From Sphingomicrobium aestuariivivum (lineage in GTDB: Bacteria > Pseudomonadota > Alphaproteobacteria > Sphingomonadales > Sphingomonadaceae), in contig NZ_CP102629.1 in NCBI RefSeq assembly GCF_024721585.1, forward strand, positions 1,746,501 to 1,810,500: a stretch of 64,000 nt of DNA, given 5' to 3'. Position 1 is the stretch's first letter. Each line of letters opens with the position of its first letter. Positions 8,331 to 32,029 of the stretch are shown here, piece by piece. The translations under genes were made by a program, and so were the position numbers. A model generated the notes under the pieces. That model saw only the letters and a program-made list of their open reading frames with translations, did not search any database and was not told the DNA's origin.

Positions 8331-9368
8331 ATGACCGAGACGATCACGATCCGCCGCCCCGACGACTGGCACCTCCACCTGCGCGATGGCGCGATGATGG
8401 AAGCGGTGCTGCCCTATACCGCACGCCAGTTCGCGCGCGCGATCGTGATGCCCAACCTTGCCCCGCCGGTGACCACCGCTGCCGCCGCTGCGGCCTATCG
8501 CGAACGCATCCTCGCGGCGCTGCCCGAGGGGATGGACTTCACCCCGCTGATGACCGCCTATCTCACCGACGATACGGATCCGGACGATCTGGCGGCGGGG
8601 TTCGAGCAGGGGATCTGGGTCGCGGCCAAGCTCTATCCGGCGGGCGCGACGACCAATTCGGCGAGCGGCGTGACCGACATCCGCAACATCGACCGCGTGG
8701 TCGAGCGGATGGAAAAGATCGGCATGCCCTTCCTCGCGCATGGCGAGGTGACCCATGACGAAGTGGACATCTTCGACCGCGAGGCGCGCTTCATCGAGGA
8801 GGTGGCGATCCCGCTCCTGAAGCGGCACGAGGGGCTGAAGTTCGTGTTCGAGCATATTACCACCCGCGATGCCGCGCAGTTCGTCGAGGCGGGCGATGCA
8901 CGGATCGCCGCGACAGTCACGCCGCAGCATCTCCAGATCAACCGCAACGCCATCTTCAAGGGCGGCATCAACCCGCATGCCTATTGCCTTCCGGTCGCCA
9001 AGCGCGAGGAGCATCGCCTCGCGGTGCGCAAGGCGGCGACGGGCGGCTCGGGCAAGTTCTTCCTCGGCACCGATTCGGCGCCGCATGCGAGAAGCGCCAA
9101 GGAAAGCGCCTGCGGCTGCGCGGGAATCTTCAATGCGCCCTTCGCGCTCGAGGCCTATGCCGAGGTGTTCGAGGAAGAGGGTGTGCTGGGTCGCCTCGAA
9201 GCCTTCGCCAGCCTCGACGGGCCGCGCTTATACGGCATGGCGCCCAATGAAGCGACGGTAACGCTGGAGAAGGTGGAGACCCGCGTGCCTGGCACGATCG
9301 ATGGCGGGACCGAGCCGGTCGTGCCCTACCGCGCCGGCGGCACGATGGGCTGGCGCCTAAAAGCCTAG
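8331..9368 (+). CDS. pyrC: Dihydroorotase PyrC (class II)
   Basis: Catalyses the third step of de novo pyrimidine synthesis, cyclising carbamoyl-aspartate to dihydroorotate. The 345-residue protein has the Zn-binding DWHLHLRDG near the N-terminus, the carboxylated-lysine region [13 protein letters not shown], zinc ligands in FLAHGEVT and FEHITTRDA, and the catalytic Asp in LGTDSAPHA. The length and order match the homodimeric E. coli-type PyrC. Its stop interlocks with that of the convergent Crp/Fnr gene through a shared CTAG at 9365-9368. Confidence 0.96.
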
Positions 9369-10129
9369 CGCTGGCAGCTGTCGATCCATCTGGACTCGGT
9401 ATCGCCGAGGACATGGTCGAAGTGGCGCTTGACCGAGGCGTAGCATTCGCAGGCGCGATGCTCGAGCTCGTCGCGGTCGGTCACGGTGACGATGCCGCGG
9501 CGATAATGGATCAGCCCTTCGTCCTGGAGCTGCTTGGCGACCGCATTGACGCTGGTCCGCTGGACCCCGAGCAGCGCGGCGAGCGCGCTCTGCGTCAAAG
9601 CCAGCTCGTCGCCGGCACGGTCCTGCGCGGTCAGTAGCCAGCGCGCGGCGCGCGCCTCGATCGGGTGAAAGGCGTTGCAGGCGACCGACTGCATGATCTG
9701 CGCGAGGAGGGCATCGGCATAGCGGCAGAAGAGGTCGCGGATGACGAGGCTGTCGCGCTTGGCCTTCTCGATGGCCTCCATCGGCACGGCGAGGACGCGG
9801 CCCGCCACCTGCACCTGCGCGCGCGTGTAGGCGGGCAGGTCGCCGCAGCTGACGATGCCGCCGATGGCGCCTTCCTGTCCAATGGTGGCGACCTCGACGC
9901 GCCTCCGGTCATCGACCTCGACGAGAAGCGAGACCATCATCGGCAGCATCGGGAAATAGGTCCGCTCGATGTTGCGGCCGCTCTCGAACAATACCTCGCC
10001 CGAGGCCAGGTCGATGGCCTCGCCCGCCTCCTCGATCGCCTCGCGCTGGGCGGCGGGGAGCATGTCGAGCAGGGCGTTGCCGGTCGAGGGCGTCTCCTCG
10101 GGGCTGGCGGGCGGCGGCGAATAAGGCAT
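9365..10129 (-). CDS. Crp/Fnr-family transcriptional regulator
   Basis: A 254-residue regulator. A cyclic-nucleotide-binding-like beta-barrel (about residues 35-150, with [11 protein letters not shown]) precedes a long dimer helix and a winged helix-turn-helix ([26 protein letters not shown], about residues 185-215). It lacks the four N-terminal Cys of Fnr, so it is unlikely to bind an oxygen-sensing Fe-S cluster. Several sphingomonad relatives act in light, stress or nitrogen responses, but the target here is unknown. It is convergent with pyrC and followed on the other strand by tRNA-Ser, 175 bases beyond its start. Confidence 0.9.
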
Positions 10130-10304: not shown

Positions 10305-10394
10305 GGAGACGTGGGTGAGTGGCTGAAACCAACGCTTTGCTAAAGCGTCATACGGGTAATCCCTGTATCGAGGGTTCGAATCCCTCCGTCTCCG
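10305..10394 (+). tRNA. tRNA-Ser (anticodon GCT)
   Basis: The acceptor stem GGAGACG (10305-10311) pairs with CGTCTCC (10387-10393), followed by discriminator G and an encoded CCA (10395-10397). The anticodon stem ACGCT/AGCGT encloses loop TTGCTAA with anticodon GCT, reading Ser codons AGC and AGU. A long variable arm (CATACGGGTAATCCCTGTAT region) and the T-loop GGTTCGAATCC are typical of a class II tRNA. The flanking gaps (10130-10304 and 10398-10515) hold no other gene that I can see. Confidence 0.97.
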
Positions 10395-10515
10395 CCATTT
10401 TCTTTCCTTCACGAACAGTGGCTTGATCGCCGGACGGCAGTGCGTCCGACGCGATAGGTCGTGCAACCGACATAGGGCTTTGACGTTCTAGGGGGCAGGA
10501 GGTGCGCTGCACGTC

Positions 10516-11076
10516 ATGTCCGACCTGCCCGTCGAATTGCACGACTATATCACCGGCTCTTCGCTGGCGCTGTCGGCGTCGCCGGTCGGGGTGGAAGATC
10601 ATCCGTTGCGGGCGGTCAGCGACGGCTTCTGCCATCTCACGGGGTTTGGGCGCGACAAGGTCATCGGCAGGAACTGTCGCTTCCTCCAGGGAGGCAAGCG
10701 CGAGCAGGAAGGGCTCGGCAAGCTGCGCGCCTTTCTCGCGAGCAAGGGACGGGGCATGTGCCGCGTCAACCTCGTCAATTTCCGCGCCGACGGCACCCCC
10801 TTCATCAACATGCTCACGCTGACCCGGATCTGCGACCATGACGGCAAGGACTGCTTCCTGTTCGGCAGCCAGTTCGACATTGGCCGTGCCGAGGTCGATG
10901 AGGCCGAGGAATTCGACGGGCAGTTCCGCGACGTGGCCGAGCGCGTGAAGAAGCGGCTCGATCCGCACAAGCTGTCGATGGTCGGCAGCGTCTCGGCGCT
11001 GGCCAATGCGGCGAGCGCGATCGCCGAGGCCAAGATGCTGGTCTCGCAGCTCGAGGGCGCCGACCGGCTCTACTGA
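10516..11076 (+). CDS. LOV-domain (PAS) blue-light photoreceptor-like protein
   Basis: A 186-residue protein with an N-terminal LOV/PAS domain (about residues 18-125). The motif GRNCRFLQG contains the Cys (residue 54) that forms the flavin-cysteinyl adduct in LOV proteins, and NFRADGTPFINMLTL is the matching FMN-side strand. A C-terminal helical region (about 125-186, KKRLDPHKLSMVGSVSALAN and following) has no recognisable output domain. It is a 'short LOV' or a protein signalling by interaction. It sits 74 bases before a giant HWE-family kinase in the same orientation, so the two probably form one light-responsive module (inference). Confidence 0.88.
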   Translation: MSDLPVELHDYITGSSLALSASPVGVEDHPLRAVSDGFCHLTGFGRDKVIGRNCRFLQGGKREQEGLGKLRAFLASKGRGMCRVNLVNFRADGTPFINMLTLTRICDHDGKDCFLFGSQFDIGRAEVDEAEEFDGQFRDVAERVKKRLDPHKLSMVGSVSALANAASAIAEAKMLVSQLEGADRLY

Positions 11077-11125
11077 CGCGACACCGGCTTTGGGGCAGGT
11101 GGATCCTTAGGGGCTTGGCGACAAC

Positions 11126-11141
11126 GATACGCCTGCGTATC
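11126..11141. promoter_or_regulatory. Inverted repeat just upstream of the CheB/CheR-kinase gene
   Basis: GATACGC-CT-GCGTATC, two perfect 7-base arms with a 2-base centre, ends 9 bases before ATG 11151. It would be an operator or a small leader hairpin overlapping the ribosome binding region. If translation began at TTG 11115 it would be coding, which is one reason to prefer ATG 11151. Confidence 0.4.
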
Positions 11142-11150
11142 AATGGCGCC

Positions 11151-14100
11151 ATGTCGGAAGGGACGCGTAGCATCGACGTGAGTAAGCAGCAGGGTAGCGA
11201 GGCCAAGGAGCCTCCGGTGCCGATCATCGGCGTAGGCGCCTCCGCAGGCGGCCTCGAGGCGCTGCGCGAGATGTTCAGTTCGGTCAAGGACCGCACGGGC
11301 ATGGCCTTCGTCATTGTCCAGCATCTCGACCCCGATCACGAGAGCCTGATGGCACAGCTGATCGCGCGCGAGACCGCACTGCGGGTGACGCAGGTAGAAG
11401 GCGGCGAGGAGCCGCTGCCCGACCAGGTCTATGTGATCCCGCCCGGCAAGGCGCTCGCGCTGCGCGAGGGGAGGCTCATGCTCGAGCCCTTCGATGCGCC
11501 GCGCGGCCAGCGCCGCCCGATCGACGATTTCCTCATCAGCCTCGCCGAGGAACGCGATCAGTTCGCCGCGGGCGTGATCCTGTCCGGCACCGGAGGCGAC
11601 GGCGCCATCGGGCTGCGCGCCATCAAGGAGCATGGCGGCCTCGCCATCGCGCAGGAACCGACCAGCGCGCGCTATGACGGCATGCCGCTGTCGGCGGTGG
11701 GGACCGGCATGGTCGATTTCGTCCACGAGCCGAGCGACATCGTCGAGGAGGCGCGCGACTATTTCGAGCGGCTCAAGGGCTCGAGCATCTACAATCGCGA
11801 AGCCAGCGGCATCGTCGGCCATATCGACAATCTGTGCGCCACGCTGCGCGACGCGGTCGGCCATGATTTCACGGGCTACAAGCGCTCGACGCTGGAACGC
11901 CGCATCGCGCGGCGCATGCAGGTGCTCGGCATCGAGCAGGCGTCCGAATATGTCGACCTGCTCGGCGCCGACCGCGAGGAATGCGAGACGCTGTTCCGCG
12001 ACCTCCTGATCAACGTCACCAAATTCTATCGCGATACCGAGCATTTCGATGCGCTGCGCAAGGGCGTGGTCGAGCCGCTGGTCGCGGCCAAGGAGCGCGA
12101 CACCGAGATCCGCGTCTGGGTGCCGGGCTGTTCGTCGGGCGAGGAAGCCTATACGATCGCGATGCTGCTGTCGGCCGAGCTGGAGGCACAGGGCAAGCGC
12201 GCCGACGTGCAGATCTTCGCCACCGACATCGACGAGGCGATGCTCAACATCGGGCGCGAGGCGCGCTATGCGCCGGCCGCGCTCGTAGACCTGCCGACCG
12301 ACCTGCGCGAGCGTTACACGGTGAGCCATGGCGACCATTTCACCGTGTCGCCGCGGATCCGCGACATGGTGCGTTTCTCCAACCACAGCATCATCAAGGA
12401 TGCGCCTTTCTCGAAGCTCGACTTCGTGAGTTGCCGCAACCTGCTCATCTATTTCGGCGACCGGTTGCAGCAGGCCGTGATCCCGCTCCTTCATTATTCG
12501 ATCGTGCCGGGCGGCTATCTCATGCTGGGTCCCTCGGAGACGATCGGGCGCTTCGAAGACCTGTTCGAGCCGATCGACCAGAAATCGCGCCTGTTCCGCC
12601 GCAAGAGCGGGCGCGGCACCTATCCGACTCATCTGGCGACCGGCCACGACCACCGCGCCCAGCGGCAGGTCCGGCGCACGCGGCGCATGCGCCACGACCG
12701 CAGCTGGGAGGACGATGCCGCGCTCAAACGCCTCGTCGACCGCTATTCGCCCGCCGCGATGGTGCTCGATCCCAATGGCGAGATCCTCGCCAGCTATGGC
12801 CGCCTGTCGCGCTATTTCGAATTTCCCAACAGCCAGACGGGCGAGGTGAGCGCGACCTCGCTGGCGCGTCCCGGCCTTCGCGAGGTGCTGGTGCCGCTCC
12901 AGCACGAAGTCCGGCTCGAGCACAGCCGGGTCGTGGCGCGTGACGTCGAGGTGCGCAGCGAGTTCGGTTCCCAGAAGATCAACGTCATCGCCGACCCGCT
13001 GCCCGACGGCAGCTACCTGTTCGTGTTCCGCGAGACCGCCGACTTTCGCGCCGAGCTCGACGAGGACCTCGTCGAACTGGGGCCCAATGACGGGCAGGTG
13101 CAGATCCTCGAGGACGAGCTCCGGCTGGCGCGCCATCGCTTGCGCTGCACGGTCGAGGAACTGGAGACGGTCAACGAAGAGCTCAAATCCTCTAACGAGG
13201 AAATGATGAGCATGAACGAGGAGCTCCAGTCGACCAACGAGGAGCTCACCACCGTCAATGACGAGCTGAAGTCGAAGGTCGACCAGCTCACCATCGCCAA
13301 TGCCGATTTGAAGAACTTCTTCGAATCGACCCGGCTCGCGGTGGTCGTGCTCGACGGCGACCTCAATATCCGCAGCTATACCGAGGCGGCCGAAGAGCTG
13401 TTCCCGCTCAAGCCAGCCGACCGTGGTCGCAAGCTGGAGGAAATGACCTCGGAGCTGACGAGCGACCGGTATCTCCAGGATGCGCGAGCCGTGTGCAACG
13501 GCAGCAGCGCGATCGAACGCCAGCTCTACAGCCGTGATGGTCGCGCCTATCTGCTGCGCGCCATGCCTTATCGCGTGCTCGACGGCAGCGTCTCGGGCGT
13601 CACGCTCGTCTTCACCGACATCACCGAGGCGCAGGCGCTCGAGGCCGAATTGGCGCAGGAGCGCGAACGGCTCAAGTTGGCGCTCGAGGTCGCGGGCATC
13701 GGCGTGTGGGAATATCTGGTCGAGGAGGAGAATACCCATCTCGACGAGGCGGTCGAACGCATGTTCGGGCTCGAGCCCGCCGACAATCACGATATCTCGG
13801 CGGTGATCTCTGCCATCCACCCCGATGACCGATCGCGGGTCGAGGCGGCGCTGCGCCGCGCCATGACCGGTGAGACCGATTATCATTCGACCTTCCGCGT
13901 GCTTGATCCCGACGGCAGCATTCGCACACTGCGCGGGCTAGGGCGGCTGGTCTCGGGCGAGTCACCGCGGCGACTGGTGGGGGTCAATTTCGACATCACC
14001 AGCGAAGCCGAGGGCAATGCCATGCGCGAGCTCCTGCTGCGCGAGATGAACCACCGCGTGAAGAACCTGTTCGCGGTGATCGGCGGCTTGACCAGCCTGG

Positions 14101-14624
14101 CCGCGCGCTCGAGTCAGGATGTCGGCGAGATGGCGCGCACGCTGCGCGAGCGCATCGCCGCGCTCGGCCGTGCCCATTCGCTCACCAATGCGAGCGCCGA
14201 GGATGGCAGCGACCTTGGAAAACTGGTCGGTGCCGCGCTGGCGCCCTATGCCGATCACGACGGGCTCAAGATCGGCGGCGATGCGGTGAAGATCCGCCAG
14301 AATGCCGTTTCGGGACTCGCCTTGCTGCTTCACGAATGGGCAACCAATTCGGTCAAATATGGAGCGCTCGCGGACCCCGAGGCGCGCCTTTCGGTCAGCT
14401 GGTCGCTGCGCGAAGACGGAGGCATTGGTCTTTTTTGGGAGGAAAAGCTCAGCCGGACACGGAACGCCGCGCCGCATGGCGGGTTTGGAACCACATTGGT
14501 CGATGTGTCTGCCCGCCAGCTCGGGGCAACGGTCGAGGAAGAAAGTAGCGAGAGGGCATTCCGATTAGCGTTGAACCTGCCAGCAGCCTGTCGTCCGGCG
14601 ACCACTATCGAATCCTCGTCGTAG
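11151..14624 (+). CDS. CheB-CheR-PAS hybrid sensor with HWE-type histidine kinase
   Basis: A protein of 1157 residues. In order: a CheB methylesterase domain with intact Ser (GASAGG, residue 31), His (QHLDPDHES) and Asp (SGTGGDGAIG); a CheR methyltransferase domain with the SAM motif GCSSGEEAYT near residue 325; a PAS-like region; a coiled coil (about 650-725, repeated NEEL/NDEL heptads); two PAS domains (about 725-955); and an HWE kinase with NHRVKN (phospho-acceptor His968), HEWATNSVKYGAL and the FWEEKL motif. ATG 11151 is preferred over TTG 11115 because of the palindrome between them. It follows the LOV gene and overlaps a response regulator in the -1 frame. Confidence 0.9.
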   Translation: MSEGTRSIDVSKQQGSEAKEPPVPIIGVGASAGGLEALREMFSSVKDRTGMAFVIVQHLDPDHESLMAQLIARETALRVTQVEGGEEPLPDQVYVIPPGKALALREGRLMLEPFDAPRGQRRPIDDFLISLAEERDQFAAGVILSGTGGDGAIGLRAIKEHGGLAIAQEPTSARYDGMPLSAVGTGMVDFVHEPSDIVEEARDYFERLKGSSIYNREASGIVGHIDNLCATLRDAVGHDFTGYKRSTLERRIARRMQVLGIEQASEYVDLLGADREECETLFRDLLINVTKFYRDTEHFDALRKGVVEPLVAAKERDTEIRVWVPGCSSGEEAYTIAMLLSAELEAQGKRADVQIFATDIDEAMLNIGREARYAPAALVDLPTDLRERYTVSHGDHFTVSPRIRDMVRFSNHSIIKDAPFSKLDFVSCRNLLIYFGDRLQQAVIPLLHYSIVPGGYLMLGPSETIGRFEDLFEPIDQKSRLFRRKSGRGTYPTHLATGHDHRAQRQVRRTRRMRHDRSWEDDAALKRLVDRYSPAAMVLDPNGEILASYGRLSRYFEFPNSQTGEVSATSLARPGLREVLVPLQHEVRLEHSRVVARDVEVRSEFGSQKINVIADPLPDGSYLFVFRETADFRAELDEDLVELGPNDGQVQILEDELRLARHRLRCTVEELETVNEELKSSNEEMMSMNEELQSTNEELTTVNDELKSKVDQLTIANADLKNFFESTRLAVVVLDGDLNIRSYTEAAEELFPLKPADRGRKLEEMTSELTSDRYLQDARAVCNGSSAIERQLYSRDGRAYLLRAMPYRVLDGSVSGVTLVFTDITEAQALEAELAQERERLKLALEVAGIGVWEYLVEEENTHLDEAVERMFGLEPADNHDISAVISAIHPDDRSRVEAALRRAMTGETDYHSTFRVLDPDGSIRTLRGLGRLVSGESPRRLVGVNFDITSEAEGNAMRELLLREMNHRVKNLFAVIGGLTSLAARSSQDVGEMARTLRERIAALGRAHSLTNASAEDGSDLGKLVGAALAPYADHDGLKIGGDAVKIRQNAVSGLALLLHEWATNSVKYGALADPEARLSVSWSLREDGGIGLFWEEKLSRTRNAAPHGGFGTTLVDVSARQLGATVEEESSERAFRLALNLPAACRPATTIESSS

Positions 14625-14959
14625 AGGACGAGATCCTCATCGCGATCGATATCCAGCACACGCTCGAAGATGCGGGCTATGAGGTGATCGGACCGCACGA
14701 GAATGTTCGCGACAGCCTCGCCACCATCGACCTCGGCAAGCCCGATGCGGCGATCCTCGACGTCCAGCTTGACGGCGAGGACGTCTTTCCCGTTGCCGAA
14801 CGGCTAAAGGCCGACGGCGTGCCGATCGTCTTCCATTCGGGCCATGCCGAACCCGCCCAGCTCGCCGAGCGCTTTCCCGAGGCGCGCTTCTGCTCGAAGC
14901 CCTGTACGCCCGGACTGCTCGAGGACGAACTGAAGCTGGCGATCCAGAGCGGCGCCTAG
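14558..14959 (+). CDS. Single-domain response regulator (start uncertain, non-AUG)
   Basis: A receiver domain without an output domain: RILVVEDEILIAIDIQ carries the acidic pair, AAILDVQLDGED the phospho-acceptor Asp, VFHSGHAE the Thr/Ser region, and CSKPCTP the conserved Lys. The frame is closed by a stop at 14546 and contains no ATG, GTG or TTG before the acidic pocket. An ATG at 14684 would remove that pocket. The best candidate is ATT at 14558 after GAGAGGGC; ATT 14564 and CTG 14588 are alternatives. It overlaps the kinase by 67 bases in the -1 frame, so a broken or frameshift-made hybrid kinase is also possible. It is the likely phosphorelay partner of the HWE kinase. Confidence 0.75.
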   Translation: MPISVEPASSLSSGDHYRILVVEDEILIAIDIQHTLEDAGYEVIGPHENVRDSLATIDLGKPDAAILDVQLDGEDVFPVAERLKADGVPIVFHSGHAEPAQLAERFPEARFCSKPCTPGLLEDELKLAIQSGA

Positions 14960-21462: not shown

Positions 21463-22039
21463 GGCCGCCGCGACTCGCCCCCGCCGACAGCATCCGAGTC
21501 GCGCCGAAAGTCGGGTCTCCGACACGGCAATGCGGACTTTTGTTTCGTTTCGGGACGTGCCTTTTCGAGATTCTTTGGCAATGCGCGGGGCCCGCCCGCC
21601 AAGCACAAATTTAACTGCGACTTTTATCAACGTGGCAAATTAAGGGTTAACCATCACGGGTAAACCTTAATCTGTATCAATCTTCACAGTCGATTGAAAA
21701 GGCGCGTTCATTATCCTCTGTCGTTTAGTTCACTCCTACTGCGAATAGCTTGTGATCTTGGGAATGAGAGGCGCGACTAGTGGAAATCGTCTCAGGAGTT
21801 AATCTTCAAAAGTTAACAGTTCTTGAGGCGGCGACCTTGAGTAAAGTCACTCGAGATGACTCTGTCATGTGAGCGCTCAACTTGCATTTATCGTCCAAAT
21901 CATGATCAATCCCTGCATCTGAAGCGGTGGGCCGGTGATTGCGTTAACCATTTCCGTTTAACGCCAGCGCAACTTCCACCGATCAAAGCGGGGGCGATCT
22001 GACCAGTCGCCCCGGGAAACAAAGAAGGTGGGACGACAC
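21463..22039 (+). promoter_or_regulatory. 577-base AT-richer regulatory region upstream of the giant adhesin
   Basis: No credible gene lies here and the stretch is visibly less GC-rich than its surroundings. It contains the glpK hairpin, then TCAATC-N9-GATTGA (21677-21697), AGTCA-N7-TGACT (21845-21861), the palindrome TGAGCGCTCA (21870-21879) and GCGTTAA-N10-TTAACGC (21941-21964). TTAACCAT occurs at 21647-21654 and 21944-21951. The adhesin start ATG 22040 has GGTGGGA 6 bases upstream. I cannot place a confident -35/-10 pair. Confidence 0.55.
21469..21503 (+). terminator. Hairpin just after glpK
   Basis: A perfect 9-bp stem, CGCGACTCG (21469-21477) and CGAGTCGCG (21495-21503), with a 17-base loop, 6 bases past the glpK stop. 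No T tract follows, so it may be a weak terminator or an mRNA 3' stabiliser. Confidence 0.45.
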
Positions 22040-25000
22040 ATGCGACAGGATGAGCTTTCGATGACGCAGGGCGCACAAGGCGCCGATCTCCAGCAGCCCG
22101 AAATCGTGCTGCCGGAAAATGCGGTGCGCGTAGCACCCGGCCCCGGCGGCTCGGTCAATCTTCCCGAAGGCACCGAGGTCGACGACATCACCGTCGCCGG
22201 CCGCGACCTCGTCGTCCAGCTGCCCGATGGCAGCTACATGATCATCGAAGGCGGCGCCGTCTTCGTGCCCCAGCTCAATATCGGCAGTGTCGAGGTTCTC
22301 CCCACCACCCTCGCCGCGCTGCTGATCGGTGAAGAGCCCCAGCCCGCCGCGGGCGACACGCCCTCGAGCGGCGGCAACTTCGGCATTCCCGTGCCGCCGC
22401 TGCCCCCCGGCATTGGCCTCGGCGACCTGCTTCCCCCCACCGCGCTCTTCTACACCCCGCCCGAATATCGCGAGCTGGGCCTGTTCGAAAACGACGTGCC
22501 GGAAATCGTCATCCAGACGCCCGAGGTGCCCTTCGGCCTGCCCAATGCCTTCGCGATCGTCGACGAAGCCGGCCTGCCGGCGAACGGGCCGCTGCGCGGC
22601 GACGACGAGCCTGCCGGTACCGGCGAGGATGACGATGGCAATCTGACCAACAACAGCGACGCCAGCGAATTCACCGGCGGCACCTTCGTCTTCTCCTCGC
22701 CCGACAATGCCATCCCGGTGGTCGAGGCAGGCGGCCTGACGATCAATGGCGTGGTGGTGATCTACAACGAGAACACCAACCCCCCGCCCGAGGAATGGCA
22801 GGCCATCCAGGGTGAATATGGCATCCTGTACATCACCGGCGGCCTCGAGAACGGCTTCGTGACGTTCCAATATGTCCTCTCGGACAACACCATCGGTGCC
22901 GAGACCGACAATTTTATCGTCACCGTCACCGACCCCGACGGCGATAGCGCTACGGCGACGCTGACCATCCAGATCATCGACGACAGCCCCGAGCCCGAGG
23001 ACGATGTCGTCACGCTGCAGCTCGGCCAGGACGAGGCCACGGGCAATGTCATCTCGGGCGAAGGCTCGGACGACGGCGCGGACAGCGCCGACATCATGGG
23101 CGCCGACGGGTTCAAGGACTGGGGCCTCGTCATCGACGGCCAGGACGTGGTCATCACCGGTCCCGGCTCGGTGAAGACCGACTATGGCACGCTCTTCTAT
23201 GACGCCGAGGGCGAATGGACCTATGTGCGCGACGAGGGCGGCGCCGGCGGCAAGACCGAGGTGTTCGAATATTTCGTGCGCGACGGCGACAACAGCCGCG
23301 AGACCGCCACGCTGACCATCATCATTCCCGATGAAGGTCCCGACGTCGAAGTGCCGCAGGACAATGCGGACAATCCGGCGCTCGGCGCGCCCGGCACTTT
23401 CGTGTTCGAATGGGGCCTCGATGCTGGCGAGAACGGCAGCCCCGGCACGCAGGCCGCGGGCAATGGCGAGACGACCAACGGCACCGTCACCTTCACCGAC
23501 GGTGACGCGCCCTCGACCTTCGAGATCGACGGCACGCCCGTGACCGCCGGCTCGATCGTCAACGGCGAGCATGGCACCCTCGAAGTGCTCTCGATCGAGA
23601 ATGGCGAGCTCACCTATCGCTACACGCTGACCGAGAATACCGATGGTAACAGCACCTCGGACAGCTTCGAGATCACCGTGATCGATCCCGACGATCCCAA
23701 TGATCCCAATGATGACGAGAAGGTCACCAAGACCCTCACCATCCAGATCATCGATGACGAGCCGATCGCGCTGGACGATGCCAACAGCATCGCCGCGGGC
23801 GAATATGGCCCCGCCACCGGCAATGTGATCGACGAAAATGACACCCCCGGCGCCGATGACGGCACCGTCACCGCGATCGCCAGCGTCAACGTGCCCGCCA
23901 ACGAGAGCGAAGGCGAAGGCACGCTGGTGATCCAGGGTGAATATGGCGTGCTCACCATCGAGGCCGATGGCGACTACAGCTATGTCCGCGACTTCGGCAC
24001 CGAAGGCGGCGTCGAGGACGTGTTCACCTACACGCTGACCGACGGCGACCAGGATCCGACCACCGCCCAGCTGGTCATCAGCATCGGCGATGATGGCGTG
24101 ACCGTCTCGATCCCCGAGCCGGGCGGCGACAGCACGACCGTCTATGAAGATGCACTGCCCGCGCGCGGCGAGGAGCCGGCGGGCACCGACGAACTCGGCG
24201 GCGGCGTCAATGACGATCCGGGCGAATTCACCAGCGGCACGGTCACCTTCATCTCGAAGGACGGCCTTGGCGGCATCAGCGTGGCAGGCACGGCGCTCGT
24301 GCTCGACGGTGCCTTCCCGCAGACCGTGTCGAGCGATGCCTCCGGCGTCCTCGTCATCACCGGCGTCAGCTATGATGCGGAAACCGGCATCGGCTCGTTC
24401 GATTACGAATATACGCTCATCGACAACACGCTGACCGATCCGGACAGCGTCAGCTTCACCGTCGAGGTGAGCGATGCCGATGGCGATTCCAACGAGTTCG
24501 CCGAACTCGAGATCGCGATCATCGACGATGCGCCGATCGCCTATGCCGACACCGATTCGATCAACGAGTCCGACCTCGGCCTCGCCACCGGCAATGTCAT
24601 CACCGACGCCGATCCGGGCGATGCGGGCGACAGCGACGACGGGGCCGACAATGCCGGTGCCGACAATGCCACGGTCGTCGGCGTGGTCGCCGGCGAGAAT
24701 CTCAACGGCGACGGCACCGACCTGGTCGACACCGTCAACGGCGAGGTCGGCATGCAGCTCGACGGTCTCTACGGCACGCTGACGCTCTACAGCGACGGCA
24801 GCTACGACTATGACCTCGACAATGGCGATCCTACCGTCACCGCGCTTGTCGACGGGCAGGAGATCTTCGACGTCTTCACCTACACCATCGAGGATGGTGA
24901 CGGCGACCGGGACAGCCAGACGCTGACCATCACCATCATCGGCGACAATGCCGGCCCGTCGGTCCGCAACGTCACCCTGTCGGTGTCGGAAGAAGGCCTG

Positions 25001-28000
25001 GCTGGCGGCAATCCCGACAGCGCTGGCGTCGACGACGACACCAACTCGGACATGGACACGGCCGACGTGCAGGGTAGCGATCCCGACGGCGATACGCTGA
25101 CCTACAGCATCGCGGCGCCGACGACCGGCACCTATTACAGCGCCGACGGGCAGGTCATCACCTGGGTCCAGGTCGATCCGCAGACGGTCGAAGGCCGTGC
25201 CGGCGGCGAGGAAGGCCCGCTCGTCATCACGGTCAGCATCGACAGCGCCACCGGCGTCGTCAAAGCCGACCTTGACGCGCCGATGTACCACGGCACCCCG
25301 CCCAGCGATGGTGACGGCAACATCGAAGGCCAGCTGACTATCGCCTTCGGCGTGACGGCGACCGATCCCGACGGCGTGGAAGGTACGTCGGTCGCGACCG
25401 TCGAGGTCGAGGACGACAGCCCGCTCGCCGGCGTCAAGACCGGTGAACCCGTGCCGAGCATCACGCTCGACGAGAGCTTGCCGTCCGAGGACGGCCTCGC
25501 CGAGGATTCGGCCAACTTTGCCGGCAACTTCAACATCGCGCCCGTCCAATATGGCGGCGACGGCCCCGGCACGGTCGCCTACAGCCTCGTGCTGATCGAC
25601 ACTGGCGATGAAGGCATCGGTTCGGGTCTCTATGCGCTCGATCCGAGCGATGTCGACGGCGTCCTCGGCGACGGCGACGGTGTCGGCCAAGGCGACGAGA
25701 TCATGCTCGTCAACGATGGCGGCACGATCAAGGGCATGGCCGGTGGCCAGACCTACTTCACCATCACCGTGGACAATACGGGCGAGGTGACCTTCACCCA
25801 GCTGCTCAACATCTGGCATTCGGACACCGGCGATCATGACGATGCCGAAGGGCTCGTTGCCAATGGCGGTTCGCTGGTCCTGCGCCAGACCGTCACCGAC
25901 GACGACAATGACAGCGCGACGGCCGATCTCGACCTGTCGGCGGGCGTCTTCTCGATCGAGGATGACGGCCCCGACGCGGTTGCCGACGAGGAAGCCGGTC
26001 TCGACACGCTGACGCTCGACGAAAGCCTGCCGTCCGAAGACGGCATCGCGGAAGCGATGGCCGACTTCTCGGACAATTTCGACCTCGTCATCGACTATGG
26101 AACCGATGGTGCGGGCAGCGTGACCTACTCGCTCGTCCTCGCCGCCGCCAATCTCGGTTCGGGCCTCTATGCGCTCGACCCCAGCGATACCGACGCGGCC
26201 GCCGACGATGGTGACGGGATCGGGCAGGGCCAGGAAATCCTGCTCAACATCAATGCCGACGGTGACACGATCACCGGTTCGGCGGGTGGCACCGATTACT
26301 TCACCATCACGATCGATGGCACGGGCCAGGTGACCTTCACCCAGCTCGAGAACATCTGGCACGGTGATCCCGGCGACGACGACGACAGCGAGGCGATCGA
26401 CCTTGTCGAGGGCAGCATCCTCGTGCGCCAGACGGTGAAGGATGCCGACGGCGACAGCGACAGCGACGATGTCGACGTCTCCTCGGGGGTCTTCTCGATC
26501 GAGGATGACGGTCCGCATGCCGAGGCCAATCCGCAGGCCGCGCTCGACACGCTGACGCTCGACGAGAGCCTGCCGTCCGAAGACGGCATCGTCACCGCGA
26601 GCGCCCAGTTCGCGGACAATTTCAACCTCGTCATCGACTATGGCACCGACGGTGCGGGCAGCGTGACCTATACGCTGGTCCTCAACGGCGCCAATGTCGG
26701 CTCGGGCCTCTATGCGCTCGATCCCAGTGACACCGACGCGCTGGCTGACGACGGTGACGGCATCGGCCAGGGACAGGAAATCCTGCTCAACATCAACGGG
26801 GCCGGCGACACCATCACCGGTTCGGCCGGCGGGGTCGACTATTTCACCATCACCGTCGACGGCTCGGGCGAAGTGACCTTCACGCAGCTCGAGAACATCT
26901 ATCACGGCGATCCGACCGATCCCGACGACGGCGAGGACATCGCCCTTGCCGCCGAGACCATCCAGGTGCGCCAGACGGTGACCGATGCCGATGGCGACAG
27001 CCATTCGGACGAGGTCGACCTGTCGACGGGTGTCTTCTCGATCGAGGATGACGGTCCCGATGCAGAGGCCAAGGACGGCGTCGATCCCGACACGCTGACG
27101 CTCGACGAGAGCCCGCTGTCGGAAGACGGGATCAACCCCGTCTCGGCCAACTTCGCTGACAATTTCGTCGAACTCATCGACTATGGCACCGACGGTGAAG
27201 GCGACGTCGTCTACTCGCTGTTCCTCAACGGCAGCAATGTCGGCTCGGGCCTCTATGCGCTCGATCCCAGCGACACTCTGGGGGTTGCCGACGATACCGA
27301 CGGCATCGGGCAGGGCGAGGAGATCCTCCTCAACCTCAATGCCGATGGCGACACCATCACCGGTTCGGTCGGTGGTACCGACTATTTCACCATCGAGGTC
27401 GATACCGAGACCGGTGAAGTGACCTTCACCCAGATCAACAATATCTGGCACGGCAACACGGGCGACAATGACGACAGCGAGGCCATCGACCTTGCCGCCA
27501 ACACCATCGAGGTTCGCCAGACGGTGATCGATGCCGACGGCGACAGCGACACTGCTGCTGTCGACCTGTCGACGGGTGTCTTCTCGATCGAGGATGACGG
27601 TCCGAGCCGGACCGACGCCGAGCTTTCGGGCACGGTCGACGAAGACGGCCTCACCGATGGTATCGAAGGTGGCATCGGCGACGTCGTGGGCACCAACACC
27701 GTGCTCAACGGCAGCGTCACCTCGCTGTTCGACCTCGGCACCGACGGTGCCGGCACCTACGGGATCGACAGCGCGGTGCTCGGCGCCAGCGGGCTGACCT
27801 CGGGCGGCGCGGCGATCACCTATTCGCTCAGCGACAGCGGCGACACGCTGATCGCGCACACCGGCGCCGACAAGAATGTCGCCAGTGCGCAGGTCTTCAC
27901 GCTGCAGGTCGCGGCCAACGGTGCCTACACCTTCACGCTGCTCGGCCCGATCGACCATGAGAGCCTCGACGGGTTGGCGGGCGATGACACCGAGAACGAC

Positions 28001-30520
28001 CTTGTCCTCAACCTCAGCGGCGCGATCATCGCCTATGATGCGGACGGCGACAGCGTGAGCGCCTCGGGTGACGATTTCCTCGTCACCGTCGATGACGACA
28101 CGCCGGTCGAATTCACCGCCGATGCGGTGGCCTCGCTCGACGGCGACCAGCCGCCGATCACCGCCGATCTCAACCTCGCCATGGGCGCGGACGGTCTCGG
28201 CGTCGACGGCCTCGAGTTCGACATCGTCGACAACACCATCGCCACGGACCAGGAAGGCAACCAGCTCCGTCTCGACGGGCAACTGCTCTACTTGTTTGGC
28301 GACGGCACCGACACGCTGGTGGCGACCACCGGCATGAACGGCACCGGCGATGTCGGCTTCATCGTCACGCTCAACGCCGATGGCACCTACACCTTCGACG
28401 TCGAAGGCGTGATCACTAACGGTACCGCGACGAGCTTTACCGATCTCTCCTCGACCAAGGCGGGTAATGTGAGCTTTGCCGCGATCGGCGCCGATAATCC
28501 GGCCAACACTGCGGACAATATCGATGTCATCGTCTCGGCGGTGAACGAGCTGGGCGGTGCCGCCACGGTCAACACCAACGTCGACCAGATCGGTGCCGAC
28601 TCGCAGGCGATCGCGCCGGGCTATGTGATCCGTTTGGACCTCGTCCAGAACGCCCAGTCGGGCGGCCCCGCGCCGAGCGGCTTCAGCTTCGACAGCTATG
28701 AAGGGACCGACCGCTTCCAGCAGGAAATCCCGCAGGTCCAGGGCAGCAACAATACGGTCGCGATCCGCGTCGGTGCGGTCTTCGAGACGGTGCAGGACCA
28801 GACCTTCTCCTACGATCTCGACAGCCTTGCCGATGGCAATGAGTCGATCCAGGAGATCACTTCGGTCACGATCTACGACTATGTGAAGGCGGGCAATGGG
28901 AAGAACTTCGTCGCCTCCTACACGGTCGAGGATCCGGGCAATGACACGCCGGTCAGCGTCAATGGCGGCCAGTATGAGGTCACCTTCCACGATGACGGCA
29001 CGGTCACCATCGACGGCCTTGGCGCGACCGATGAATATGCCATCGAAACGAGCACCGATTTCAACTCGGTGATCGTCGAAGCTGATCCGGCCAACACCGA
29101 GAACTTCGACCTCGGCATCTTCACGCTGGGTCGCGAGACGGCCGGTATCCCGATCGACCAGGACTTCGACGTCATCGCCACCGATGCGGACGGCGACAGT
29201 GTCACGGGCCAGGTCGAGACCACGATCATCCAGCAGTTCGCCGGCAACCTCGTCGGGACCAACGGCGACGACGTGCTCACCGGTAACGGCGATGCCGACT
29301 CGATTGCCGGCAATGACGGGAACGATCAGATCACCGGCTTCGCAGGCAGCGACTATCTCTACGGCGGCGCGGGTGACGACATCATTGCCGGTGGTGACGG
29401 CAACGACTACATCCGCGGCGGCAACGGCAATGATGAAGTCTATGGCGGCGCCGGCGGCGATATCTTCGTCATGTCGTACAGCTCGGTGACCGACGGCAGT
29501 GTCGACACCATCGGCGACTACAAGACGTCCGATGCGGATATCATCGATCTCAGCAAGCTGCTCGAGGTGCCGAACGGGACCGACCTCAACGGCGGCGGTT
29601 ATGTCCGCTATCTCGATGACGGCACCCTGCAGGTCGATGTCGACGGCGGTGGTGACAATTGGGTCACCGTGGCCACCGTTTTCTCGAGCCCCGGCGTGCA
29701 CCCCGCCTCCGTCTACGTGGTGGTCGAGAGCCAGGGCAGCAGCTTCGTCGTGGTCAATGCGCAACCGGCACCGATGGCGCTCTCGATGAGCCTGAGCGCC
29801 GGCCAGACGCTGGTCGTCGCCAATGACGAGGCCGAGATCTCCAAGTCGCTCATGATGGCCTCGGCGGTCGCGGTAGGCTTCGGTCTTGCCGCGATGAACG
29901 AGACGATGCCGATGCAGTCGCTGCAGGCACCGGAAACGGTCGATGCCGACAGCTTCTCGACCATGAGCATCGAGGCGATGGGCGGCTACGAAGCCACCGC
30001 GCCGGACATGTCCGCGCTGCATCCCGAAGCCGCCTTCCTTGGCGAACCGGTCAGCGTGGAAGCGCCGTCTGTGTCGTCGGGCGAGGCCGCGGCCTTCGGC
30101 TCGGTCGAGGGTGACCTCGGCCAGCCGGATGCGGGCAGCAACAGCGCGATGGTAACCGAACAGGTCGCCTTCGAGGCACCCGAAGCGCCGGCCGCCTTTG
30201 CCGGTGGCGAGGTGGTGATGCCCGGTGCCGACGCGCTTGCCGCGCTGGCCGCGGGGCACGCGCAGGGCGTCGCGCCGGAGCTGGCCGACGTACTTGGCGA
30301 TGCATTGCTGAAGGGCGATGCGGGCGACGTGCTCGAGACCGCGCTTGCGGCGCTCGGCGAAGGGCATACTGCGCTGGATCAACTGGCCATGTTGCCGGCC
30401 AATGATGCTGCCTCGATTTGGGGTGATGCGCAAAATGCTGGATTTACCGCCGATTTCGGGGCAAATGTAGATATGGAAGCGATGATGCTTCAACCCGATG
30501 CGGGGCTGGCCAACGGCTAG
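22040..30520 (+). CDS. Giant repetitive RTX adhesin, T1SS substrate with Lap-type PAAG site
   Basis: A predicted exported adhesin of 2826 residues without a signal peptide. In order: an N-terminal module (1-105) ending in P102-A103-A104-G105, the dialanine motif LapG-type proteases cut in LapA-like adhesins; a Pro-rich linker; T1SS-143-like Asp/Gly/Thr-rich repeats ending TLTIQIIDD(S/E)P (about 200-1100); four 181-183-residue DUF5801-like repeats (1143-1855); further beta-rich domains; RTX nonapeptides such as GGAGDDIIAGGDGNDYI (about 2410-2480); and a 260-residue tail past the RTX block. ATG 22040 is chosen over GTG 22028, which lacks a binding site. The secretion genes lie directly downstream. 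Confidence 0.93.
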   Translation: MRQDELSMTQGAQGADLQQPEIVLPENAVRVAPGPGGSVNLPEGTEVDDITVAGRDLVVQLPDGSYMIIEGGAVFVPQLNIGSVEVLPTTLAALLIGEEPQPAAGDTPSSGGNFGIPVPPLPPGIGLGDLLPPTALFYTPPEYRELGLFENDVPEIVIQTPEVPFGLPNAFAIVDEAGLPANGPLRGDDEPAGTGEDDDGNLTNNSDASEFTGGTFVFSSPDNAIPVVEAGGLTINGVVVIYNENTNPPPEEWQAIQGEYGILYITGGLENGFVTFQYVLSDNTIGAETDNFIVTVTDPDGDSATATLTIQIIDDSPEPEDDVVTLQLGQDEATGNVISGEGSDDGADSADIMGADGFKDWGLVIDGQDVVITGPGSVKTDYGTLFYDAEGEWTYVRDEGGAGGKTEVFEYFVRDGDNSRETATLTIIIPDEGPDVEVPQDNADNPALGAPGTFVFEWGLDAGENGSPGTQAAGNGETTNGTVTFTDGDAPSTFEIDGTPVTAGSIVNGEHGTLEVLSIENGELTYRYTLTENTDGNSTSDSFEITVIDPDDPNDPNDDEKVTKTLTIQIIDDEPIALDDANSIAAGEYGPATGNVIDENDTPGADDGTVTAIASVNVPANESEGEGTLVIQGEYGVLTIEADGDYSYVRDFGTEGGVEDVFTYTLTDGDQDPTTAQLVISIGDDGVTVSIPEPGGDSTTVYEDALPARGEEPAGTDELGGGVNDDPGEFTSGTVTFISKDGLGGISVAGTALVLDGAFPQTVSSDASGVLVITGVSYDAETGIGSFDYEYTLIDNTLTDPDSVSFTVEVSDADGDSNEFAELEIAIIDDAPIAYADTDSINESDLGLATGNVITDADPGDAGDSDDGADNAGADNATVVGVVAGENLNGDGTDLVDTVNGEVGMQLDGLYGTLTLYSDGSYDYDLDNGDPTVTALVDGQEIFDVFTYTIEDGDGDRDSQTLTITIIGDNAGPSVRNVTLSVSEEGLAGGNPDSAGVDDDTNSDMDTADVQGSDPDGDTLTYSIAAPTTGTYYSADGQVITWVQVDPQTVEGRAGGEEGPLVITVSIDSATGVVKADLDAPMYHGTPPSDGDGNIEGQLTIAFGVTATDPDGVEGTSVATVEVEDDSPLAGVKTGEPVPSITLDESLPSEDGLAEDSANFAGNFNIAPVQYGGDGPGTVAYSLVLIDTGDEGIGSGLYALDPSDVDGVLGDGDGVGQGDEIMLVNDGGTIKGMAGGQTYFTITVDNTGEVTFTQLLNIWHSDTGDHDDAEGLVANGGSLVLRQTVTDDDNDSATADLDLSAGVFSIEDDGPDAVADEEAGLDTLTLDESLPSEDGIAEAMADFSDNFDLVIDYGTDGAGSVTYSLVLAAANLGSGLYALDPSDTDAAADDGDGIGQGQEILLNINADGDTITGSAGGTDYFTITIDGTGQVTFTQLENIWHGDPGDDDDSEAIDLVEGSILVRQTVKDADGDSDSDDVDVSSGVFSIEDDGPHAEANPQAALDTLTLDESLPSEDGIVTASAQFADNFNLVIDYGTDGAGSVTYTLVLNGANVGSGLYALDPSDTDALADDGDGIGQGQEILLNINGAGDTITGSAGGVDYFTITVDGSGEVTFTQLENIYHGDPTDPDDGEDIALAAETIQVRQTVTDADGDSHSDEVDLSTGVFSIEDDGPDAEAKDGVDPDTLTLDESPLSEDGINPVSANFADNFVELIDYGTDGEGDVVYSLFLNGSNVGSGLYALDPSDTLGVADDTDGIGQGEEILLNLNADGDTITGSVGGTDYFTIEVDTETGEVTFTQINNIWHGNTGDNDDSEAIDLAANTIEVRQTVIDADGDSDTAAVDLSTGVFSIEDDGPSRTDAELSGTVDEDGLTDGIEGGIGDVVGTNTVLNGSVTSLFDLGTDGAGTYGIDSAVLGASGLTSGGAAITYSLSDSGDTLIAHTGADKNVASAQVFTLQVAANGAYTFTLLGPIDHESLDGLAGDDTENDLVLNLSGAIIAYDADGDSVSASGDDFLVTVDDDTPVEFTADAVASLDGDQPPITADLNLAMGADGLGVDGLEFDIVDNTIATDQEGNQLRLDGQLLYLFGDGTDTLVATTGMNGTGDVGFIVTLNADGTYTFDVEGVITNGTATSFTDLSSTKAGNVSFAAIGADNPANTADNIDVIVSAVNELGGAATVNTNVDQIGADSQAIAPGYVIRLDLVQNAQSGGPAPSGFSFDSYEGTDRFQQEIPQVQGSNNTVAIRVGAVFETVQDQTFSYDLDSLADGNESIQEITSVTIYDYVKAGNGKNFVASYTVEDPGNDTPVSVNGGQYEVTFHDDGTVTIDGLGATDEYAIETSTDFNSVIVEADPANTENFDLGIFTLGRETAGIPIDQDFDVIATDADGDSVTGQVETTIIQQFAGNLVGTNGDDVLTGNGDADSIAGNDGNDQITGFAGSDYLYGGAGDDIIAGGDGNDYIRGGNGNDEVYGGAGGDIFVMSYSSVTDGSVDTIGDYKTSDADIIDLSKLLEVPNGTDLNGGGYVRYLDDGTLQVDVDGGGDNWVTVATVFSSPGVHPASVYVVVESQGSSFVVVNAQPAPMALSMSLSAGQTLVVANDEAEISKSLMMASAVAVGFGLAAMNETMPMQSLQAPETVDADSFSTMSIEAMGGYEATAPDMSALHPEAAFLGEPVSVEAPSVSSGEAAAFGSVEGDLGQPDAGSNSAMVTEQVAFEAPEAPAAFAGGEVVMPGADALAALAAGHAQGVAPELADVLGDALLKGDAGDVLETALAALGEGHTALDQLAMLPANDAASIWGDAQNAGFTADFGANVDMEAMMLQPDAGLANG
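25466..27603 (+). repeat. Four tandem DUF5801-like repeats in the adhesin
   Basis: Units begin with LTLDESLPSEDG-like sequence at 25466, 26015, 26558 and 27101, spaced 549, 543 and 543 bases (183, 181 and 181 codons). Each contains GSGLYALDPSD, YFTI, VTFTQ, a H-(S/G)-(D/N) loop, RQTV and ends GVFSIEDDGP. The high similarity at DNA level points to recent duplication or gene conversion. Confidence 0.85.
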
Positions 30521-30533
30521 CCCTCGGCGGGCG

Positions 30534-30561
30534 GGGGTGGCACCGATGCCCGGTGCACCCC
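30534..30561 (+). terminator. Hairpin between adhesin and tolC-like gene
   Basis: GGGGT (30534-30538) plus GCACCG (30540-30545) pair with CGGTGC (30551-30556) plus ACCCC (30557-30561), with one bulged G and a 5-base loop. There is no T tract. It may partly terminate, or protect the 3' end of the adhesin mRNA and set the ratio of adhesin to secretion parts. Confidence 0.45.
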
Positions 30562-30592
30562 TCGCATGTGTGGGACCAGAGAGGGGCAGAAC

Positions 30593-32011
30593 ATGAAGAA
30601 GCGTTTGATTGCAGTCGCGTCGGTCACCATGGCCGCGATCCTTGGGAGCCCTGCACAGGGCGCCGACCTGCGTGAAGCCATTGCTTACGCGCTCCAGACC
30701 AGCCCGGAAGTGCGCCAGGCGGTGCACAACCGCGAGGCCACCATGTTCGAGCGCAAGCAGGCACAGGGTCTCTACTACCCGCGCATTTCGGTCGAGGCCT
30801 CGGCAGGGATCCGCGAGCTTCGCAACCCGACCCGTCGTTCGCTCGGCATCGCCAATGACACGCTTTATCCGCGCGAGATCGCGCTGACGGTCGACCAGCT
30901 CCTGTGGGACAATGGCGCCCGTGAAGCCGAGGTCGGCTACCAGGCCGCGCGCACCGATGCCGCCGCGGCGCGCATCGAGGAGCGCTCCGAATATATCGCG
31001 CTGAATATCAGCCGCGCCTATATCGACTACCTCCTGCAGCAGCGCCTCGTCGCCATCGCGCAGGACAATGCCGCCTTCCACCAGGGCCTCGTCAACGACC
31101 TCCAGTCGGGTGTCGATGCCGGCTCGATCTCGATCGCCGACCTCCAGCAGAGCCAGGAGCGCCTGCAGTCGGCGCAGGCCCGCGTCGTCGAGGCGCAGGA
31201 AGAGCTGGACGTCGCCGCGATCAGCTTCGAGCGCCTTGCCGGCATGCCGATCGGCAATGTCTCGATGCCGCCCGACCTGTCGAACGCCATGCCCGACACG
31301 CTTGGTGCCGCGATCGAACTGGCGCGCCTCGAGAACCCGATGGTCGAGGAAGCCAAGCACGACTATGCCGCCGCGCGCGAACTCATCGACAAGGCCAAGG
31401 GCGAGATGGGCCCGCGCTTCAACCTCGAAGGTCGCGTCCGCTACGGCGAGGACATCGACGGCTTCGATGGCATCACCGAGGATTACCAGGCCCGCGGCGT
31501 GATGCGCTGGGACGTCTTCACCGGTGGCACCAACGCCTACAATGTGCGCGAGCAGCAGGCGCGGGCCGACGAGGTCCATGCCCGCCTGTTCGAAAAGCAG
31601 CGTGATGCCGAGGAACTGGCCCGCGCCGCCTGGTCGCGCCTCACCAACCAGGGCCGTCTTGCCGACGAGCTGGCGACGCAGAGCCGCATCACCGATGACC
31701 TGCTCCTGTCCTATCGCGAGCAGTTCAACGTCGGTCGCCGTTCGCTGCTCGACGTGCTCGACGCGCAGAATACCCGCTACAATGTGCAGGCGCAGCTCGA
31801 GACCGCGCAGCTGGCGCAGCTCTATGCCCAGTATCGCGTGCTCGCGGCGACGAATCGGCTGGTCTGGGCGATGGGTGCAGAAATCCCGACGCCTGGCTAC
31901 GTCCGGACTGCGGTTGACCAATATTGGGTCGATCCCGTCGAGCCCGTTGAACTCCAGGAAGACAGCATGGAATACCCGCCGATGGGCCCGCCGGCCGTCG
32001 ACGAAGACTAA
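30593..32011 (+). CDS. TolC-family outer membrane channel of the adhesin type I secretion system (LapE-like)
   Basis: A 472-residue TolC-family protein, from ATG 30593 with GAGAGGGG upstream. The signal peptide MKKRLIAVASVTMAAILGSP is cut near QGA-DLRE. OEP domains follow: DLREAIAYALQTSPEVRQAV, long helices, NISRAYIDYLLQQRLV, and the second repeat with YREQFNVGRRSLLDVLDAQN, a highly conserved TolC motif. It would form the outer membrane tunnel for the adhesin encoded just upstream. It is not a lipoprotein, unlike the efflux channel at 14963-16396. The next gene starts 18 bases later. Confidence 0.93.
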   Translation: MKKRLIAVASVTMAAILGSPAQGADLREAIAYALQTSPEVRQAVHNREATMFERKQAQGLYYPRISVEASAGIRELRNPTRRSLGIANDTLYPREIALTVDQLLWDNGAREAEVGYQAARTDAAAARIEERSEYIALNISRAYIDYLLQQRLVAIAQDNAAFHQGLVNDLQSGVDAGSISIADLQQSQERLQSAQARVVEAQEELDVAAISFERLAGMPIGNVSMPPDLSNAMPDTLGAAIELARLENPMVEEAKHDYAAARELIDKAKGEMGPRFNLEGRVRYGEDIDGFDGITEDYQARGVMRWDVFTGGTNAYNVREQQARADEVHARLFEKQRDAEELARAAWSRLTNQGRLADELATQSRITDDLLLSYREQFNVGRRSLLDVLDAQNTRYNVQAQLETAQLAQLYAQYRVLAATNRLVWAMGAEIPTPGYVRTAVDQYWVDPVEPVELQEDSMEYPPMGPPAVDED

Positions 32012-32029
32012 AAATGAATGGAACGGGGT

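Follow-up and report, generated by a model that had tools for sequence, protein, structure and literature searches.

The short LOV protein, CheB-CheR-HWE histidine kinase and single-domain receiver encoded in succession in a 64,000-nucleotide stretch of Sphingomicrobium aestuariivivum DNA (contig NZ_CP102629.1, positions 1,746,501 to 1,810,500 of the forward strand; the window, to which coordinates refer unless stated otherwise) form a three-gene module that is real, conserved and apparently mobile. We favour the interpretation, which we consider rather probable, that the module is a blue-light two-component system in which the photosensor has become a separate protein: the LOV protein would act in trans on the HWE kinase, and the kinase would phosphorylate the receiver, with CheR/CheB-dependent adaptation plausible. 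The features of the module are as follows.

10516-11076, forward strand: stand-alone (short) LOV protein, 186 residues, containing Cys54 (Pfam PAS_9, 5.2e-12)
10984-11034, forward strand: C-terminal stretch of the LOV protein, residues 157-173, GSVSALANAASAIAEAK, a candidate contact surface
11151-14624, forward strand: CheB-CheR-coil-PAS-PAS-HWE histidine kinase, 1157 residues from ATG (Pfam)
11226-11747, forward strand: CheB methylesterase domain with S31, H58 and D150 (PF01339, 4.7e-50)
11826-12584, forward strand: CheR_N plus CheR methyltransferase domain (PF03705, 5e-15; PF01739, 7.8e-52)
13152-13286, forward strand: acidic heptad helix, residues 668-712, a candidate methylation helix, from the kinase alignment
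13308-13625, forward strand: PAS domain 1 (PAS_10; PF13596, 5.2e-21), LOV motif absent
13734-13985, forward strand: PAS domain 2 (PAS_3; PF08447, 6.7e-13), LOV motif absent
14043-14273, forward strand: HWE_HK dimerisation/phosphoacceptor region with His968 (PF07536, 2.4e-16)
14588-14959, forward strand: single-domain receiver, 123 residues, with Asp58; putative CTG start, overlapping the kinase end

Gene order, whose conservation in relatives had been set as a test in the preliminary description, is maintained both in the family and on plasmids. Orthologous kinases, defined by E of 1e-180 or better, were found in 32 of 397 family genomes, 30 of which carry a LOV gene immediately upstream; a LOV frame with the photoactive motif was observed upstream in 30 of the 31 loci read, the exception being genome G005. 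In G005 and G578 the orthologous kinase has no LOV gene but the receiver is retained, suggesting that the kinase can work without the LOV protein. On plasmids, a LOV match adjoins all 13 kinases of 45.9-56.1% identity among the best 25 of 257 records, hosts being Sphingomonas, Novosphingobium, Sphingobium, Rhizobium, Neorhizobium and Sagittula and thus spanning Sphingomonadales, Rhizobiales and Rhodobacterales. Neighbouring genes vary from plasmid to plasmid (nine records compared, one of which, L068, lacks annotation), which indicates that the LOV-kinase unit travels together. Within another alphaproteobacterial family, a module-type LOV protein (E of 1e-72 or better, the next match being 2e-35) was present in two of 298 genomes, adjoining the module kinase in both. 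Recurrence of the pairing in many bacteria suggests that the module is probably a genuine light switch, and perhaps one with self-adjusting sensitivity.

A LOV motif was detected beside none of 20 other CheB-CheR loci and none of 28 examined phylum-wide, the latter with shorter upstream flanks. In a kinase tree of 58 rows (locus L050 was dropped as it gave no suitable frame), the 40 LOV-linked and two LOV-less rows form a single clade with support of 100 and the 16 others fall outside it. Identities of the LOV protein, kinase and receiver correlate with one another (r of 0.81-0.84, uncorrected for shared descent). Distribution within Sphingomicrobium is patchy, the kinase occurring in five of 11 genomes listed; that of Sphingomicrobium astaxanthinifaciens is 80% identical to the window kinase, and the kinase of genome G684, also of this genus, equals the S. 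astaxanthinifaciens kinase in aligned columns. In one genus (g37), a gap of roughly 560 to 850 bases separates the LOV gene from the kinase frame downstream of it. In G119, the member examined, this gap holds a Crp-like gene, identified by eye (locus L179, 7349-8119, reverse strand), and five further g37 genomes exhibit similar spacing and no adjacent receiver. On the plasmid of Rhizobium sp. CC-CFT758 (L070, 3980-7385) the kinase is annotated as pieces in different frames, and this copy is therefore probably frameshifted.

Several candidates for variant arrangements were rejected. No fused LOV-CheB-CheR protein was detected among 117 LOV frames in 210 loci; a CheB-CheR protein of 41% identity (L084), considered as a possible LOV fusion, contains no LOV motif, and a Pedobacter match (L064) is a fused LOV-kinase rather than the module. 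A short LOV protein in genome G397 belongs to a different neighbourhood. This 199-residue stand-alone protein, with the motif GSNCRFMQG, lies in a region (L177, 4517-8838) in which it is preceded by two dynamin-type GTPases and a small protein with no Pfam match, and no kinase was seen there.

The LOV protein has the attributes expected from the preliminary description, in that the photoactive Cys54 is read within GRNCRFLQ of a gene (10516-11076) that precedes the kinase, and the absence of a fused output domain was borne out, PAS_9 being the sole Pfam domain in its 186 residues. C54, N88, N98 and Q119 do not vary among the 18 LOV proteins aligned, the last three residues being what we take to be the flavin-contact Asn, Asn and Gln. 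All 30 LOV matches of the family loci also contain the photoactive cysteine, a count that is circular as the cysteine is part of the search motif. Beyond the core, alignment of the LOV proteins reveals conserved columns at G157, A163, I169 and A170 of a C-terminal extension, and module LOV C termini share the consensus GSxxxIANSxxxIAQAK whereas other LOV matches mostly stop short of this stretch. Neither protein reaches the cut-off of 450 bits for the NCBIfam LOV histidine kinase family NF052306, the LOV protein scoring 85 and the kinase 111 bits. Structures predicted from two-row alignments had pLDDT values of 35 for the LOV protein and 36 for the kinase and were discarded.

The claim that a 1157-residue kinase retains intact CheB, CheR and HWE centres is upheld by Pfam matches and by preserved motifs. 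Matches to CheB, CheR_N, CheR, PAS_10, PAS_3 and HWE_HK all exceed Pfam cut-offs, HWE_HK scoring 60.7 bits versus a cut-off of 22.8, and the ATP-binding part follows the HWE_HK region up to about 14580. The HWE centre is complete, with NHRVKN as the H-box, HEWATN providing the N-box Glu and WEE as the WxE motif, and in an alignment of 16 kinases N967, H968, R969, K971 and N972 are invariant. The same alignment indicates invariance of CheB S31, H58 and D150, presumably equivalent to Ser164, His190 and Asp286 of Salmonella CheB, and of the CheR SAM-site motifs. CheR motifs NVTxFxRD, GCSSGEEA and CRNLLIY are intact, and the domain aligns over its full length with solved CheR enzymes. The protein is thus a CheB-CheR fusion that has kept both domains and their active residues, with activity predicted from these sequence features. 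Reading of both PAS domains revealed no LOV motif in the kinase itself. An alternative start is available at an upstream TTG (11115).

A single-domain receiver does follow the kinase, as originally described, but GTG 14684 is an unlikely start for it. Translation from this GTG omits the first strand and the acidic pocket and scores 22.9 bits against a Pfam cut-off of 30.2, and the frame upstream of it, overlapping the kinase end, encodes RILVVEDE. No ATG, GTG or TTG occurs in the receiver frame between the stop near 14546 and 14684, and the S. astaxanthinifaciens locus (L063) has TTG at the position of the window CTG 14588. The receiver therefore probably starts at CTG 14588 rather than GTG 14684, as judged from the reading frame. 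Compared with solved structures, its best match is Sma0114 (2LPM), with SdrG (5IEB) third. Of the 32 family genomes with the kinase, 26 have a receiver gene next to it. In the loci read, it is adjacent in 25 of 31, on the same strand in nine and convergent in 16, and G578 adds one more. Retention of the adjacent receiver in two orientations argues for a functional link rather than operon inertia. No adjacent receiver was observed in the six g37 genomes, in which LOV protein and kinase are present, or, by a pattern script, in the two genomes of the other alphaproteobacterial family.

The preliminary description had not mentioned the acidic heptad helix, a possible substrate of CheR and CheB within the same protein. 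Residues 668-712 present Glu-Glu at 669, 676, 683, 690 and 697 and Asp-Glu at 704, and constitute the best-conserved 45-residue stretch of the kinase in 16 rows, with 38 of 45 columns invariant and a mean majority frequency of 0.957. The second-best stretch, around the CheB Asp, reaches 0.857 with 27 of 45 invariant, and conservation thus peaks on the acidic helix, above every catalytic stretch. A helix search of 99 family genomes returned 18 matches in 16 genomes, all inside CheB-CheR genes by position, one of which (G081) is broken into two frames. After CheR, 44 of 48 CheB-CheR frames have at least five acidic pairs with a spacing of seven; of the rest, two show a shorter series and two are fragmentary (the frames derive from 50 loci, two of which gave no CheR frame). 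Methylation sites of chemoreceptors are likewise Glu/Gln pairs at a spacing of seven, flanked by small residues. Resemblance of the top-conserved stretch of the kinase to a chemoreceptor methylation helix suggests that CheR and CheB may modify the kinase itself, the helix serving as substrate of the same-chain enzymes in a built-in adaptation. We tentatively extend this to a self-adapting photoreceptor kinase, possible although we would not yet bet on it, in which a detachable LOV protein switches the kinase and same-chain CheR and CheB methylate its own helix, providing a light memory that requires no chemoreceptor. The same helix is present in most CheB-CheR fusions examined and self-methylation could therefore be the general function of that large class. 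Against the helix as substrate, the association with CheR and CheB is also expected if all three were simply inherited together in one family of proteins, and a dimerisation coil would be conserved as well.

A competing interpretation, which we consider somewhat unlikely, is that CheB, CheR and the helix persist for structural reasons alone, as leftovers forming a scaffold and a dimerisation coil, within a split LOV-controlled kinase that performs no methylation. The helix, being common to CheB-CheR proteins generally, could serve only as a dimerisation coil, extended coils often connect a sensor to its kinase, and none of the six acidic pairs, which are candidate methylation sites, fully matches the MCP site consensus, the best satisfying three of its four small-residue positions. 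However, invariance of the catalytic and SAM-site motifs in 16 kinases is unexpected for an inert scaffold, and the helix surpasses every catalytic stretch in conservation. Alternatively, CheB and CheR of the fusion may act on ordinary chemoreceptors, coupling light to taxis with the LOV protein tuning the coupling. The earlier statement that no chemoreceptors lie nearby holds for the window but not for the genome, in which six MCP signalling-domain matches occur elsewhere; this and the intact CheR and CheB residues are compatible with such coupling. We nevertheless judge it quite improbable, as the window contains no chemoreceptor and at most CheB-CheR loci examined the acidic helix lies in the same gene, which suggests a substrate in cis. 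The kinase itself has no Pfam match to the MCP signalling domain (PF00015).

For the split photosensor system that we prefer, the following sequence of events is envisaged. The LOV protein would be a separate subunit in which light generates a flavin-cysteine adduct, the helical ends of the LOV protein would change, and with them the way it holds the kinase, probably through the PAS or helical region of the latter. This altered grip would set autophosphorylation of the HWE kinase, from which the phosphoryl group would pass to the adjacent single-domain receiver, acting as a shuttle or sink like SdrG, MrrA or Sma0114. The receiver may in turn feed the general stress response, and CheR and CheB plausibly methylate and demethylate glutamates of the kinase's own heptad helix, leading to adaptation to constant light. 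The data establish the three genes with their intact motifs, a very strongly conserved LOV-kinase pairing and a well-conserved receiver; flavin binding, direct contact, the direction of the light effect, phosphotransfer to the receiver, the stress-response link and self-methylation are inferred.

Light might instead be incidental, with the LOV protein functioning mainly as a redox or flavin sensor, and the LOV domain of LovK from Caulobacter has been suggested to have a redox role (PMC5964349); retention of the photoactive Cys in 18 of 18 aligned LOV proteins makes this a poor prospect. The least probable alternative is that the target of the LOV protein is something else, such as a transcription regulator, and that the kinase is only co-expressed with it: short LOV proteins are thought to signal through partner proteins (excerpts of PMC4335406), those of Pseudomonas putida regulate transcription (excerpts of PMC8508746) and in G119 the LOV and kinase genes flank a Crp-like gene, but what keeps company with the LOV gene in different orders and on unrelated plasmids is the kinase gene and not one for a transcription factor.

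A possible destination for the phosphoryl group is encoded in the same genome, a single contig of 2.35 Mb. Five HWE_HK matches were detected, and a region at C1:955313-959015 (L180, 5314-9016) encodes a sigma factor, PhyR and a 517-residue HisKA_2 kinase, with two NepR matches nearby; it is a general stress response cluster. SdrG/MrrA-type receivers obtain phosphoryl groups from many HWE/HisKA_2 kinases and relay them onward towards PhyR, according to parts of PMC5964349 and PMC5898713, which makes a link between the module and the stress response plausible. No EcfG-type promoter was detected upstream of the module in the window, nor was a sigma-70 promoter-like or terminator-like site found. 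Among upstream regions, a loose EcfG-type promoter occurs in 3 of 40 versus 0.4 in shuffles, the scan covering the 41 loci minus L114, at which the script missed the LOV gene. The genome also encodes a second LOV domain (C1:14236-14556, reverse strand), 35% identical to the window LOV protein over the core; it lies in a 346-residue frame, the length of which indicates that it is probably a fused LOV kinase.

The surroundings of the module were also inspected. About 120 bases separate the end of a tRNA-Ser(GCT) gene (10305-10397, forward strand) from the LOV gene, and a Crp-type regulator (HTH_Crp_2; 9365-10129, reverse strand) lies upstream beyond it. tRNA genes are a common type of integration site, and this one suggested such a site for the module, but no tRNA was found in L063 or in L103-L106, the flanks of the latter four being only ∼1.5 kb. 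Further along the window, a frame at 22028-34207 (forward strand) encodes a protein of 2830 residues in which DUF5801, Big_9 and RTX calcium-binding repeats were recognised. Genes for an outer-membrane efflux protein and an ABC exporter come next, and the protein has the appearance of a giant surface protein secreted by a type I system.

In the full-text literature searched, which covers few subscription papers, we found no description of a stand-alone LOV protein that has a CheB-CheR-HWE kinase as its partner or of methylation of such an acidic helix, and met none of a substrate of CheB-CheR fusion proteins. To our knowledge, few partners of short LOV proteins have been identified. Here, the gene linkage conserved across many lineages names a candidate partner for one such protein, and the acidic helix is a concrete candidate substrate for CheB-CheR fusions. 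If both parts are true, the module would represent a photoreceptor of the two-component type that has sensory adaptation built in, and would give optogenetics a modular tool of three genes.

Fused LOV-HWE kinases are well known (PMC12148442). In EL346, RT-HK and LovK, a LOV photosensor controls an HWE/HisKA_2 kinase of alphaproteobacteria with a tie to the general stress response (PMC12148442, PMC5964349), as proposed for the module. There, sensor and kinase form a single polypeptide, whereas the LOV protein of the module is separate, and the module kinase, unlike theirs, contains CheB, CheR, the acidic helix and two non-LOV PAS domains. RsLOV of Rhodobacter sphaeroides, like the module LOV protein, lacks an output domain and, in passages of PMC9614035, is a dimer in the dark that dissociates in the light. 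Its structure entries, identified through parts of PMC4335406, align at positions 5-169 of the 183 in the module profile and thus into the C-terminal extension. RsLOV scores 104-107 bits against this profile, EL346 about 111 and EL222 about 105, in comparison with 222-251 for module LOV proteins; by sequence, RsLOV is similar to the module subfamily while scoring well below it. The receiver resembles SdrG, MrrA and Sma0114 of the FAT GUY family by its nearest solved relatives, and SdrG and MrrA accept phosphoryl groups from HWE/HisKA_2 kinases (portions of PMC5964349 and PMC5898713). FAT GUY receivers carry FATGY, whereas the window receiver reads FHSGH and is therefore not filed in that family. 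Other CheB-CheR fusion proteins share the domain order of the module kinase and, in most of those examined, the acidic heptad helix; they differ in that no LOV gene adjoins the loci examined, and those included in the tree lie outside the module clade. A parallel in arrangement is provided by H-NOX and NosP, stand-alone sensors that regulate an adjacent histidine kinase in trans, as proposed for the LOV protein here, using haem and nitric oxide where the module would use flavin and light.
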